In this document: in pieces, positions 186-51,686 of the stretch
Layout of the letters: each line of letters begins with the position of its first letter
How positions within the stretch are numbered: position 1 is the first letter of the stretch
Source of the DNA: Lentzea sp. NEAU-D7
Lineage (GTDB): Bacteria > Actinomycetota > Actinomycetes > Mycobacteriales > Pseudonocardiaceae
Direction: 5' to 3'
DNA length: 64,000 nt
Assembly: GCF_026242055.1 (NCBI RefSeq)
Contig: NZ_JAPJDL010000019.1
Location: forward strand, 62,001-126,000
Program-made: the position numbers and the translations under genes
The notes under the pieces: generated by a model
What the model was told of the DNA's origin: nothing
Seen by the model: the letters and a program-made list of their open reading frames with translations, nothing else
Databases searched by the model: none

Positions 186-1346
186 TCACACGCAGTTGAG
201 TTCCGGCCGTGCCTTGTCGGCGGCGAACCTGGAGGCGTCCAGACTGGACACGTCGACGAAGGGCTCGCGTCCGAGCACGAGATCGCGCACGACCTCGCCG
301 ACCGCGGGCCCCTGCAGGAACCCGTGTCCCGAGAAGCCCGTGGCGTAGAAGAACCTGCCCGCTGAACCGATCAGCGCGTTGTGGTCCGGCGTCACCTCGT
401 ACAGCCCGGCCCACCCGTCGCGCACGCCCACGTCCAGCAGTCTCGGTGCCCGCCTGGCGATGGCCTCGGTGAGGCGGGGCAGCCACGCGTCCGACATGTC
501 GAGCTTGAAACCCGGTGTCTCGTCGGGATCGGACATGCCGAACAGCAGTCCCCGGCCCTCGCGGTGGAAGTAGAAGGTGCTGCCGAAGTCGATGGTGAAG
601 GGAGTCACCCGATCGTGTAGCTCCGGCATGGGTTCGGTGAACATGATCTGCCGCCGCAAGGGGGAAACGGGCAGGTCAACGCCCACCATCTGGCCGATCT
701 CCCGCGACCAGGCACCCGCCGCGCAGACCAGAGTCCGCGCTGAAACCGCCCCGCGGTCGGTTTCGACGCGAAAAGTGTCAGACCCCGTCCCTACGATCGA
801 TCTCACGGTTGTTCTGGTGTGGAAGCGGACACCGGATCGGCGGGCAGCGGTGGCGTAGCCCAGTACGACGGACTCAGGCGTGCAGTGTCCGTCGTCGGGC
901 GAGAAGGTCGCCGCGAGCAGGCCGTCCGTTTCGATCAGCGGCGAGATCCGCCGGGCCTCCTCGACAGTCAGCATGCGGCTGCGCACGCCGAGGGAGTTCT
1001 GGAGATCGACGTTGCGCTCGAACGCCGTGACGTGTTCCCGAGAGGAAAGGAGGAACAGGTAGCCGACCTGGTGCAGATCGATCTCCTGCCCGGGGCGCTG
1101 CGGAAAGCGCTGGAACAGTTCGATGGATCGAGCTCCGAGCCTGATGTTCAGTTCGTCGGAGAACTGGGCGCGCACTCCACCCGCTGCCTTGCAGGTGGAG
1201 CCGGACCCCAGGTCATCCCTCTCCACGACCACGACGTCCCGGACTCCTGCCTCGGCGAGGTGGAAGGCGATGGATGTGCCCATCACCCCGCCGCCGATGA
1301 CGACGACCTCTGCTTGAGCGGGCAGCTCAGGCGAGGCGGAAGTCAA
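186..1346 (-). CDS. FAD-dependent oxidoreductase (DAO / sarcosine oxidase-like)
   Basis: 386 residues, the normal size for single-chain D-amino-acid, glycine or sarcosine oxidase-like flavoenzymes. The ADP-binding Rossmann motif VIGGGVMG sits at residues 16-23, followed by an acidic beta-2 end (VVVERDDLGSGST). A C-terminal DHNALIG segment near residue 325 is the usual second FAD contact. It probably oxidises a secondary or primary amine or imino acid with release of peroxide. The start is TTG 1346, preceded by GAGG eight bases upstream and overlapping the end of the aldehyde dehydrogenase gene by 20 bp. Operon position suggests it works in the same amino-acid breakdown route. Substrate is not assignable from sequence alone. 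Confidence 0.88.
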   Translation of the reverse strand: MTSASPELPAQAEVVVIGGGVMGTSIAFHLAEAGVRDVVVVERDDLGSGSTCKAAGGVRAQFSDELNIRLGARSIELFQRFPQRPGQEIDLHQVGYLFLLSSREHVTAFERNVDLQNSLGVRSRMLTVEEARRISPLIETDGLLAATFSPDDGHCTPESVVLGYATAARRSGVRFHTRTTVRSIVGTGSDTFRVETDRGAVSARTLVCAAGAWSREIGQMVGVDLPVSPLRRQIMFTEPMPELHDRVTPFTIDFGSTFYFHREGRGLLFGMSDPDETPGFKLDMSDAWLPRLTEAIARRAPRLLDVGVRDGWAGLYEVTPDHNALIGSAGRFFYATGFSGHGFLQGPAVGEVVRDLVLGREPFVDVSSLDASRFAADKARPELNCV

Positions 1347-19543: not shown

Positions 19544-19566
19544 CTGTCAGACCCCCACCCTAGACT
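19544..19566 (+). promoter_or_regulatory. DNA-damage (RecA-NDp / PafBC-type) promoter of polA
   Basis: CTGTCAGAC at 19544-19552, eight bases, then TAGACT at 19561-19566. This fits the mycobacterial RecA-independent damage promoter consensus tTGTCRgtg-N8-TAnnnT, which is activated by PafBC. The GTG start of polA is seven bases after TAGACT. An almost identical element precedes uvrB. Confidence 0.75.
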
Positions 19567-19573
19567 CGGGCCC

Positions 19574-22246
19574 GTGACTACCTCAGACGTGAAGCGGCTC
19601 CTGCTCATCGACGGTCACTCGATGGCCTACCGAGCGTTCTACGCCCTGCCCGCCGAGAACTTCGTGACGAAGACGGGCCAGGTCACGAACGCCGTGTACG
19701 GGTTCACGTCCATGTTGATCAACATCCTGCGGGACGAGAAGCCGACGCACGTCGCGGTGGCGTTCGACGTCTCGCGCAAGACGTTCCGCTCCGAGCAGTA
19801 CCCCGAGTACAAGGCCGGTCGCTCCAAGACGCCGGACGAGTTCCGCAGCCAGGTCTCCCTCATCCAGGACGTGCTGGCCACGCTCCGCATCCCCACCATG
19901 GAGAAGGAGAACTACGAGGCGGACGACATCATCGCGACGCTGACCACGCAGGCCGTGGAGCAGGGCGTCGAGGTGGAGATCGTCACCGGCGACCGCGACG
20001 CGTTCCAGCTGGTCAACGACAAGGTCACGGTGCTGTACCCGGTCAAGGGCGTCTCGGAGATGGGCCGCTTCACCCCGGCCTACGTCGAGGAGAAGCACGG
20101 TGTGCGGCCCGACCAGTACGCGGACTACGCGGCGGTGCGCGGCGACTCGTCGGACAACCTGCCGAACACCCCCGGTGTCGGCCCCAAGACGATCATCAAG
20201 CTGCTCAACCAGTTCGGCGGCCTCAACGAGCTCGTCGACCGCATCGACGAGGTGCCGGGCAAGGTCGGCGAGGCCCTGCGCGGCAACCTGGCGAACATCA
20301 TCATGAACCGCCAGCTCACCGAGCTGATCAAGGACGTCGAGCTGCCGTACACGATCGACGGGCTCGAGGTGCAGCAGTGGGACCGCGACGCGGTGCACCG
20401 CCTGTTCGACGAGCTGGAGTTCCGCGTCCTGCGCGACCGTCTGTTCCAGACGCTGTCCACCGCGGAGCCCGAGGCCGAGGAGGGTTTCGAGGTCTCCGGC
20501 GGCGCGATCCCCGCGGGCACGCTCGCGAAGTGGCTCGACCAGAACGCCCGCAAGACGCGGGTCGGCGTCGCGCTGCGCATCACCACCGACCTGGAGGGCG
20601 TCGCGCTGTGCACCGCCACCGGCGAGGGCGGGTACGTCGCCGTCGAGGAGCTGAACGAGGCCGACGAGCAGGCGCTCGCCGCGTGGCTGGCCGACGAGTC
20701 GGTGTCCAAGGCGGGCCACGACCTGAAGCTGCCGTTGCGGCGCGTGCGCGCCCGCGGGTGGAAGCTGCGCGGCCTGTCCTCCGACACGGCGCTGGCCGCC
20801 TACCTGGTGCGTCCCGGCCAGCGGTCGTTCGCCCTGGACGACCTGGCGCTGCGCTACCTCAAGCGCGAACTGCGGGCCGAGGAGTCCGGGGACGGTCAGC
20901 TGTCGCTGCTCTCCGACGAGTCCGAGGAAGCCCAGAAGGTCGCCACCAGCACGATCCTGCGCGCGCGTGCCGTCGCCGAGCTCGCCGACCGCCTCGACGA
21001 GGAACTGGTCACGATCGGCGGCGCCGACCTGCTCGCGAACCTCGAGCTGCCGCTGATGAACGTGCTCGACGAGGTCGAGGCCATCGGCATCGCGATCGAC
21101 GTCGACCACCTCTCGGAGCTGGAGGCGCACTTCGCCGCCGGCGTGAAGCAGGCGGCGCAGGACGCGTACTCGGTCATCGGCAAGGAGATCAACCTCGGCA
21201 GCCCGAAGCAGCTGCAGACGGTGCTCTTCGACGAGCTGAACATGCCGAAGACGAAGAAGACCAAGACCGGCTACACCACGGACGCGGACGCGCTGCAGAA
21301 CCTGTTCGAGCAGACCGAGCACCCGTTCCTGCAGCATCTGCTCTCGCACCGCGACGTCACGCGCCTGAAGTCCACTGTGGACGGCCTGCTGAAGTCGGTG
21401 GCCGACGACGGCCGCATCCACACGACGTTCCACCAGACGATCGCGGCCACCGGCCGGCTGTCCTCGACGGACCCGAACCTGCAGAACATCCCGATCCGCA
21501 CGGACGAGGGCCGCCGCATCCGCCAAGCGTTCGTCGTCGGCGAGGGCTACGCGGAGCTGATGACTGCGGACTACAGCCAGATCGAGATGCGGATCATGGC
21601 GACGCTGTCCGGCGACGAGGGCCTGATCGCGGCGTTCAACAGCGGCGAGGACCTGCACACCTACGTGGCCTCGCAGGCGTTCTCGATCCCCACCTCCGAG
21701 GTGACGGGGGAGATGCGCCGCCGCATCAAGGCGATGTCGTACGGCCTCGCGTACGGCCTGTCGGTGTTCGGTCTGTCGCAGCAGCTGCGCATCCCGACCG
21801 AAGAGGCCCGCGAGCAGATGGAGGCGTACTTCTCCCGCTTCGGCGGCGTGCGCGACTACCTCAACGAGATCGTGGAGAAGGCCCGCAAGGACGGCTACAC
21901 CGAGACGGTGCTCGGCCGTCGCCGCTACCTGCCGGACCTGACGTCGGACAACCGCCAGCGCCGCGAGATGGCCGAGCGCATGGCTCTCAACGCGCCGATC
22001 CAGGGCAGCGCCGCGGACATCATCAAGGTGGCCATGCTGGGCGTCTACCGCGCGCTGGAGTCGTCCGGCCTGCGCTCGCGGATGCTGCTGCAGGTCCACG
22101 ACGAACTGGTGCTGGAGGTCGCCGAGGGCGAGCGCGAGGCCGTCGAGGCGCTCGTGCGCGACCAGATGGGCAACGCCTACCAGCTCCTGGTGCCGCTGGA
22201 GGTCTCGGTCGGCGTGGGTCGTTCCTGGGACGACGCCGCCCACTAG
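19574..22246 (+). CDS. polA: DNA polymerase I
   Basis: 890 residues. The 5'-3' exonuclease domain (1 to about 300, starting LLLIDGHSMAYRAFYAL) is intact. The 3'-5' exonuclease-like domain (about 310-500) lacks the catalytic D-x-E acid motif (VALRITTDLEG instead), so proofreading is probably lost, as in mycobacteria. The polymerase domain has motif A (TADYSQIEMRIMA), motif B (RRRIKAMSYGLAYG) and motif C (LLQVHDELVLEV). It fills gaps in excision repair and Okazaki maturation. GTG 19574 is chosen because it sits seven bases after the -10 box of a damage-type promoter. Confidence 0.97.
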   Translation: MTTSDVKRLLLIDGHSMAYRAFYALPAENFVTKTGQVTNAVYGFTSMLINILRDEKPTHVAVAFDVSRKTFRSEQYPEYKAGRSKTPDEFRSQVSLIQDVLATLRIPTMEKENYEADDIIATLTTQAVEQGVEVEIVTGDRDAFQLVNDKVTVLYPVKGVSEMGRFTPAYVEEKHGVRPDQYADYAAVRGDSSDNLPNTPGVGPKTIIKLLNQFGGLNELVDRIDEVPGKVGEALRGNLANIIMNRQLTELIKDVELPYTIDGLEVQQWDRDAVHRLFDELEFRVLRDRLFQTLSTAEPEAEEGFEVSGGAIPAGTLAKWLDQNARKTRVGVALRITTDLEGVALCTATGEGGYVAVEELNEADEQALAAWLADESVSKAGHDLKLPLRRVRARGWKLRGLSSDTALAAYLVRPGQRSFALDDLALRYLKRELRAEESGDGQLSLLSDESEEAQKVATSTILRARAVAELADRLDEELVTIGGADLLANLELPLMNVLDEVEAIGIAIDVDHLSELEAHFAAGVKQAAQDAYSVIGKEINLGSPKQLQTVLFDELNMPKTKKTKTGYTTDADALQNLFEQTEHPFLQHLLSHRDVTRLKSTVDGLLKSVADDGRIHTTFHQTIAATGRLSSTDPNLQNIPIRTDEGRRIRQAFVVGEGYAELMTADYSQIEMRIMATLSGDEGLIAAFNSGEDLHTYVASQAFSIPTSEVTGEMRRRIKAMSYGLAYGLSVFGLSQQLRIPTEEAREQMEAYFSRFGGVRDYLNEIVEKARKDGYTETVLGRRRYLPDLTSDNRQRREMAERMALNAPIQGSAADIIKVAMLGVYRALESSGLRSRMLLQVHDELVLEVAEGEREAVEALVRDQMGNAYQLLVPLEVSVGVGRSWDDAAH

Positions 22247-49467: not shown

Positions 49468-49516
49468 GGGGTCTGACCAGGCACAATCGGAAATTGTCAG
49501 ACCCCCGGCGTACCGT
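49468..49516 (+). promoter_or_regulatory. uvrB promoter (RecA-NDp / PafBC type) within an inverted repeat
   Basis: TTGTCAGAC (49494-49502), eight bases, then TACCGT (49511-49516): an exact match in spacing to the mycobacterial PafBC-dependent damage promoter. The GTG of uvrB follows seven bases later. In addition GGGGTCTGAC (49468-49477) is the exact complement of GTCAGACCCC (49496-49505), so the -35 element is one arm of a 10-bp inverted repeat that begins 11 bp after the preceding gene. Confidence 0.8.
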
Positions 49517-49523
49517 GCTTCCC

Positions 49524-51686
49524 GTGGCTTTCGCAACCGAGCTCCCGCCAGAGGAAAGCACCGTCAAGGCGCACTCCGAGCACCGTCCCGTCGGCGACAT
49601 CGTCCGCTCCGACGGGCAGTTCCGCGTGGTCAGCGAGTACCAGCCGGCGGGCGACCAGCCGGCGGCGATCGCCGAGCTCGAACGGCGCGTGCGCTCCGGT
49701 GAGCGCGACGTCGTGCTGCTCGGCGCCACGGGTACCGGCAAGTCGGCGACCACGGCGTGGCTCGTCGAGAAGCTGCAGCGCCCCACCCTGGTGATGGCGC
49801 CGAACAAGACCCTGGCCGCCCAGCTGGCGAACGAGCTGAAGGAGCTCTTCCCGCACAACGCGGTGGAGTACTTCGTCAGCTACTACGACTACTACCAGCC
49901 CGAGGCGTACATCCCGCAGACGGACACGTACATCGAGAAGGACTCCTCGATCAACGAGGACGTCGAGCGCCTGCGCCACTCGGCCACGATGTCGCTGCTG
50001 ACCCGGCGCGACGTCATCGTGGTCGCGTCGGTGTCGTGCATCTACGGCCTGGGCACGCCCCAGTCGTACCTCGACCGCTCGATCCCGCTGGAGACGGGCG
50101 TGGAGGTCGACCGTGACGCGTTCCTGCGCCTGCTGGTCGACGTCCAGTACACCCGCAACGACATGTCGTTCACCCGCGGCTCGTTCCGCGTGCGCGGCGA
50201 CACGGTCGAGATCATCCCGTCCTACGAGGAGCTCGCCGTCCGCGTCGAGTTCTTCGGCGACGAGATCGACAAGCTCTACTACCTCCACCCGCTCACCGGC
50301 GACGTGGTGAAGGAGGTCTCCGAGCTCCGGATCTTCCCCGCGACGCACTACGTGGCGGGCCCGGAGCGCATGGAGCGCGCGATCCGCGACATCGAGGCCG
50401 AGCTGGAGACGACGCTCGCGCAGATGGAGCGCCAGGGCAAGCTGCTCGAGGCCCAGCGCCTGCGCATGCGCACCCAGTACGACCTGGAGATGATGAAGCA
50501 GGTCGGCTTCTGCAACGGCATCGAGAACTACTCGCGCCACATCGACGGCCGCGGGCCGGGGACGGCGCCGGCGACGCTGCTCGACTACTTCCCGGACGAC
50601 TTCCTGATGGTCATCGACGAGTCGCACGTGACCGTGCCGCAGATCGGTGGCATGTACGAGGGCGACGCGTCCCGCAAGCGCAACCTCGTGGAGCACGGCT
50701 TCCGCCTGCCCTCCGCGCTGGACAACCGCCCGCTGACCTGGGAGGAGTTCGCCGACCGGATCGGCCAGGTCGTGTACCTGTCGGCGACCCCGGGCCCGTA
50801 CGAGATGGGGCAGACCGGCGGGGAGTTCGTCGAGCAGGTCATCCGCCCCACCGGCTTGGTCGACCCCGAGGTCGTCGTCAAGCCGACCGAGGGCCAGATC
50901 GACGACCTGGTGCACTCCATCCGCGAGCGGGCCGAACGCGACGAGCGGGTCCTGGTCACGACGCTGACCAAGAAGATGGCGGAGGACCTGACGGACTACC
51001 TGCTGGAGCTGGGGATCCGGGTCCGGTACCTGCACTCCGAGGTCGACACCCTGCGCCGGGTGGAGCTGCTGCGCCAGCTCCGTCTCGGCGAGTACGACGT
51101 GCTGATCGGCATCAACCTGCTGCGGGAGGGCCTCGACCTCCCCGAGGTGTCGCTGGTGGCGATCCTCGACGCCGACAAGGAGGGGTTCCTGCGGTCCGGG
51201 ACGTCTCTGGTGCAGACGATCGGCCGTGCCGCTCGCAACGTGTCCGGTGAGGTCCACATGTACGCGGACCGGATCACCGACTCGATGCGGCACGCGATCG
51301 AGGAGACCAACAGGCGGCGTGAGAAGCAGGTCGCGTACAACGTCGAGCGCGGCATCGACCCGCAGCCGTTGCGGAAGAAGATCACCGACATCCTGGAGGC
51401 GGTCTACTCCGAGATCGAGGACGAGGTTCCGGTCGGCGGGTCCGGGCGCAACCAGTCCCGGGGCAAGCGGGCCGCGGGGGAGAGCGGGCGGTCCTCCGGC
51501 GTGGTGGCTTCGGCCGAGCGGGCCGGGATGGCCCGGTCCGAGCTGGCCGATCTGGTGCAGTCGCTGACCGACCAGATGATGAACGCCGCCCGGGATCTGC
51601 AGTTCGAGCTGGCCGCCCGGCTGCGGGACGAGATCCAGGACCTGAAGAAGGAGTTGCGGGGGATGGACGCGGCCGGGGTCAAGTGA
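49524..51686 (+). CDS. uvrB: Excinuclease ABC subunit B
   Basis: 720 residues. Walker [14 protein letters not shown] near 75-87, the damage-probing beta-hairpin [20 protein letters not shown] near 120, DESH box [14 protein letters not shown] near 365, helicase motif [11 protein letters not shown] near 570 and the C-terminal UVR domain ([20 protein letters not shown]) that contacts UvrC. It verifies DNA damage in nucleotide excision repair. GTG 49524 is taken as start because it lies seven bases after the -10 box. Confidence 0.98.

Follow-up and report, generated by a model that had tools for sequence, protein, structure and literature searches.

The closest described counterparts of the promoters considered here are the LexA/RecA-independent promoters of mycobacteria (RecA-NDp, or P1-type), whose consensus is tTGTCRgtg-8nt-TAnnnT (PMC5656591), or, in M. 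tuberculosis, TGTCGG, TGTCAG or TGTCAC-10N-TA-3N-T, with no demand for gtg (PMC8151990). PafBC is activated by single-stranded DNA and its PafB subunit contacts the -26 motif (PMC11804915), and in M. smegmatis lacking pafBC the uvrB transcript is down by 37% (PMC5656591). A review extends the promoter type to other Actinobacteria (PMC8223512); in Streptomyces venezuelae an initial motif search suggested that the PafBC motif is not conserved (PMC9380542).

We analysed a window of 64,000 nucleotides from Lentzea sp. NEAU-D7, in which a preliminary description had noticed that two repair genes, uvrB and polA, carry twin promoters, and had proposed that they belong to one regulon. The features that matter at the two genes are the following.

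49494..49502, + strand: uvrB PafBC-type "-26" element TTGTCAGAC (sequence; family-locus pattern match)
49511..49516, + strand: uvrB -10 hexamer TACCGT (spacer-11 match in family loci)
49524..51686, + strand: uvrB coding sequence, GTG start at 49524-49526 (NCBIfam UvrB NF003673, 1077 bits)
19544..19552, + strand: polA PafBC-type "-26" element CTGTCAGAC (sequence; family-locus pattern match)
19561..19566, + strand: polA -10 hexamer TAGACT (sequence; family-locus conservation)
19574..22246, + strand: polA coding sequence, GTG start at 19574-19576 (NCBIfam DNA polymerase I)

The twin layout is as it had been described: both genes have the 11-mer TGTCAGACCCC, an equally spaced TAnnnT and a start codon 7 bases further on. 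The order is TTGTCAGAC, 8 bases, TACCGT, 7 bases and GTG at uvrB, and CTGTCAGAC, 8 bases, TAGACT, 7 bases and GTG at polA, and both sites read TGTCRG, then N10, then TAnnnT. The closest named UvrB found is that of Saccharothrix (88%), and the product of polA is DNA polymerase I (NF004397, 1065 bits, residues 7-888 of 890). Both promoters fit the published motifs apart from the lower-case gtg, in whose place, after TGTCR, they have GAC; GTG stands there at the same genes in other genera, and we took the lower-case letters as variable consensus positions rather than defining ones. The uvrB element is very likely a PafBC-dependent promoter of the RecA-NDp (P1) type, and uvrB, with its GTG 7 nt past the -10, is predicted to be leaderless. 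The guess of a shared regulon is right, and the kind of switch involved is already known.

The pattern is not confined to the two genes. TGTCRG-N10-TAnnnT occurs 89 times in the genome compared with 14 occurrences of the reversed pattern, so that chance would be expected to account for about 14 of the 89; the element had been called rare, a description that 89 consensus sites do not bear out. Its spacing is constrained: when spacers of 8 to 13 bases are pooled there are 105 matches in the genome versus 56 for the reversed pattern, and among the 100 matches listed N10 accounts for 85, the other 15 being divided among five spacers, none of which has more than 5. The wider pattern TGTCR-N11-TAnnnT yields 100 matches versus 35 reversed; these represent 98 distinct contexts, of which 87 have TGTCRG, and a 12-base gap instead leaves 4 matches versus 11 in the control. 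At locus L234 (G000:C25:87499-87596), two copies of the motif face each other in a near-palindrome about 98 bases long.

The constrained spacing is also seen in the family. All 40 genomes of a family sample covering 39 genera have both genes, and at the 30 loci examined per gene TGTCR-N11-TAnnnT is present in 28 for uvrB and 28 for polA; with spacers of 8-10 and 12-14 it is found at 0 of 30 loci for either gene. TGTCR, TA and T were imposed by the search pattern, and the G that follows TGTCR, which was not imposed, is kept at 96% of the 28 uvrB and 92% of the 28 polA loci. The first GTG or ATG lies 6-8 nt past the -10 at 26 of 28 uvrB loci, where the distance is always 6-7 nt, and at 27 of 28 polA loci, and TAGACTCG is almost invariant across the 28 matching polA loci. 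Three misses (L136, L155 and L191) have CGTC in place of TGTC at the right position, and the polA locus L170 keeps TAGACT with no TGTC ahead of the -10. Among the family loci examined, the full 11-base identity between uvrB and polA is restricted to this genome and its one relative of the same genus; what the others have in common is TGTCRG, the spacing and TAnnnT.

A wider sample comprised 80 named uvrB loci, in which the Actinomycetes were grouped by record titles. Within 100 nt upstream of uvrB the strict motif is present in 17 of 30 Actinomycetes, not counting 2 that lacked upstream sequence, and in none of the 10 other Actinomycetota or the 38 remaining loci, the last group including at least two deep-branching Actinomycetota; it is absent there from 13 of the 30 Actinomycetes, Corynebacterium and Bifidobacterium among them. 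A looser TGTCR match is found in 20 of 30, 3 of 10 and 1 of 38, respectively. In eight control bins of 100 nt within uvrB, none of the 32 Actinomycetes and none of the 10 other Actinomycetota had a match, and the 38 others had 2 in one bin and none in the remaining seven. Peterkaempfera griseoplana (Streptomycetaceae) has the motif upstream of uvrB, and the one named Streptomyces locus, from S. oceani, has the looser form TGTCGT only.

The presumed regulator is encoded in the genome by two adjoining open reading frames.

L279:1117-2079: PafB open reading frame (full-length PDB match)
L279:2079-3056: PafC open reading frame (full-length PDB match)

Their full-length matches are PDB entries 7p5x, 9fnd and 6sj9, which the depositors named "Transcriptional regulator-like protein" (the PafB match), "PafC" and, for 6sj9, "Proteasome accessory factor B/C (PafBC)"; 7p5x and 9fnd we take to be M. 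smegmatis complexes. The pafBC genes lie about 22.7 kb downstream of pafA, and the four open reading frames scanned directly after pafA gave no family match, the neighbour being a RebC-like oxygenase. Between pafA and pafBC (G000:C12:472400-495100; L261, L280, L281 and L279) there are genes for this RebC-like oxygenase and an EvaA-like sugar dehydratase, which suggests that a gene cluster of the glycosylated indolocarbazole type may have been inserted into the Pup/PafBC locus.

We compared 149 genomes of the phylum and called a genome enriched when its motif count stood above that of the reversed pattern at p<0.01. All 12 genomes with a close PafB (E<1e-50) are enriched (691 sites versus 137 reversed). 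The same holds for 13 of the 69 whose PafB is more distant (E 1e-50 to 1e-20), for 1 of the 28 whose matches are weaker still and for 3 of the 40 lacking any PafB match (733 versus 658 reversed sites). Several genomes of family f13 are enriched though their PafB similarity is only moderate, and three genomes without a listed PafB match, G101, G102 and G164, stand above the control with 15, 28 and 26 motif sites to 2, 10 and 8 reversed ones. The 12 enriched genomes with a close PafB and the uvrB promoter of P. griseoplana bear on the suggestion made for S. venezuelae that the motif is not conserved.

The less expected feature of the promoters in this genome is their core. After TGTCRG, 48 of the 87 sites continue with ACC, 19 with TGn and 15 with GGn, and the unusual TGTCRGACC is the commonest form. 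Another WYL-family activator, a paralogue of PafBC, may bind the element, at least at the TGTCRGACC sites: the core is bimodal, with 48 ACC versus 34 TGn or GGn, the genome has 17 matches to the WYL domain, and a WYL activator acting under genotoxic stress, SiwR, is reported from M. smegmatis (PMC10693628). Across genera, however, the cores at uvrB and polA interchange among GACC, GTGG, GTGC and GGGG at one unchanged spacing, and since the cores vary at constant spacing a single tolerant regulator is the simpler account; we regard the paralogue as improbable and PafBC as the regulator to be preferred.

A downstream open reading frame with a coding score of at least 20 was assigned to 72 of the 98 sites, and 18 of the 72 begin exactly 7 nt past the -10. 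Removal of 8 non-TGTCRG sites, one duplicate and the short open reading frames of L209, L213, L217 and L233 left 59 scanned genes: uvrB, polA and 57 others. Replication and repair account for 18 of the 59, namely recA, uvrA, uvrB, uvrC, polA, ligA, a second NAD ligase, recN, radA, recQ, sbcD, a DinG/YoaA-like helicase, a dnaN-like clamp, dnaX, gyrB, a gyrB-like topoisomerase subunit and two PD-(D/E)XK nucleases. The control consisted of 15 listed sites with wrong spacing, 10 of which yielded scanned open reading frames, and none of these 10 is a replication or repair gene (Fisher p 0.038, with a small control). The other 41 scanned genes lie outside replication and repair (ribosomal protein S2, glyoxalases and ABC transporters, for example), and many of them have no family match. 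Among the repair genes that had been named for a check, recA and uvrA have the element, but no motif occurs within 1.5 kb upstream of pcrA/uvrD or of either dnaE locus.

Several sites stand beside genes of other kinds. The gene for the proteasome ATPase has a consensus site 32 nt ahead of it (L202, G000:C12:447360), and another is located just past a second PafA-family gene and before a proteasome subunit gene (L203, G000:C12:459719); the second PafA-family gene, at 391.6 bits, falls below the cut-off and is probably dop. Three genes for WGR-domain proteins are found downstream of TGTCAGACCCC sites (L205, L206 and L219), at a distance of 276 nt in L206.

A set that includes recA, uvrA and recN is SOS-like, and the promoters might accordingly be thought to be under LexA control. 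The element is, however, non-palindromic and stands at a fixed distance from the -10, and GAACN4GTTC is found 0 times in the 64 kb window, where 0.9 occurrences are expected by chance, a number so low that other forms of the LexA box may still occur. We consider LexA control of these promoters very improbable, and PafBC the far better explanation of the same gene set.

Counts of the 11-mer in the window are weak evidence by themselves. There are 3 exact copies of TGTCAGACCCC, at 776, 19545 and 49495, and 4 with at most one mismatch versus 1.7 expected; in the whole genome there are 18 exact copies and 0 of the reversed control, and a comparison of the two lists places TAnnnT at the equal distance in 13 of the 18. 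Two further features of the window belong to its third consensus match, and one to the uvrB promoter.

776..797, + strand: third consensus match, with correctly spaced TACGAT, antisense in a ThiO-like oxidase gene
186-1346, - strand: the ThiO-like oxidase gene that holds this match
49468..49478, - strand: inverted copy GGTCAGACCCC, 5' of the uvrB element, forming a 10-bp inverted repeat with it

The match at 776-797 has no credible gene downstream and probably belongs to the sites expected by chance, although it may be a promoter for antisense transcription. The inverted copy was considered as a general part of the promoter and rejected, since copies matching at 10 of 10 positions accompany only 2 of the 98 sites in the genome and their overall distribution resembles that of the control. 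That the likeness of uvrB and polA is a coincidence between two GC-rich promoters, as the 4 copies in the window could be read, is already contradicted by the genome-wide enrichment, the fixed spacing and the 28 of 30 family loci per gene, and we give it practically no credence. The proposal of one regulon rather than chance is strongly supported, because the promoter anatomy with its fixed genome-wide spacing, the repair genes downstream, the conservation in the family and the presence of PafB and PafC, each of them observed in this analysis, all agree.

The unusual point beside the ACC core is a hairpin repeat of about 73 bases, which occurs in 19 distinct copies (three in L256 and one each in L027, L029, L038, L051, L194, L198, L210, L226, L232, L235, L236, L238, L241, L242, L250 and L251). 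Every copy begins with TGTCR-N11-TAnnnT, a link that is biased by selection, as the copies were gathered through the promoter pattern; the search used a covariance model built from 12 copies and run on loci of the same genome around motif sites. Pairing holds in 96.4% of cells versus 37-64% when the alignment is slid, and on the promoter strand the hairpin has U-G and G-U wobble pairs. Its variation is mostly of the type C-G to U-G and A-U to G-U, and covariation does not rise above shuffles, 240 of 500 of which reach the observed value. Ten loci searched against Rfam gave no match up to E 0.1, and searches of plasmids, phages and viral contigs were likewise negative. No full copy turned up in the window or in 100 other loci (a weak test); the model's only match in the window, a weak one, is to the promoter of uvrB (13.4 bits, E 0.34). 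In rough gene calls, a gene on the same strand ends no more than 11 nt from 6 of the 19 copies; a next gene was called for 15 copies, and in 12 of these it is convergent. We found no description of the repeat in Rfam or in the available texts of the literature on PafBC with small RNA. As the repeat combines the promoter pattern with a hairpin and the next gene, where one was called, is mostly convergent, it could be that promoters of the PafBC type have become part of a multi-copy repeat from which damage would induce short structured, partly antisense RNAs throughout the genome, a speculation that we rate as rather unlikely.

How the promoters would work we infer from the mycobacterial literature, which is also the source for the start point and the inducibility. 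Upon DNA damage, PafBC with single-stranded DNA would join the housekeeping RNA polymerase, PafB would read TGTCRG near -26 and sigma-A would read TAnnnT. Transcription would then begin at the GTG or right beside it, so that the mRNA of uvrB would be leaderless, and polA, recA, uvrA, uvrC, recN and others would be switched on jointly without LexA. A damage response known from mycobacteria is in this way placed in a 9.3 Mb actinomycete, with polA, ligA, dnaX and the proteasome genes as predicted new members; the available texts found in our literature search do not name polA as a member of the PafBC regulon.

Compared with the LexA SOS box, which is a palindromic repressor operator, the uvrB and polA element is non-palindromic, although the DNA-repair gene sets of the two systems overlap. 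The likeness to the mycobacterial RecA-NDp/P1 promoters is much closer: it extends to TGTCRG, the 10-base gap and TAnnnT, to the position upstream of recA, uvrA, uvrB, uvrC and other repair genes and to the possession of PafB and PafC genes. The differences are that the core here is often TGTCRGACC and not TGTCRgtg, that pafBC is separated from pafA, and that polA, the proteasome ATPase and the proteasome subunit have sites of their own.
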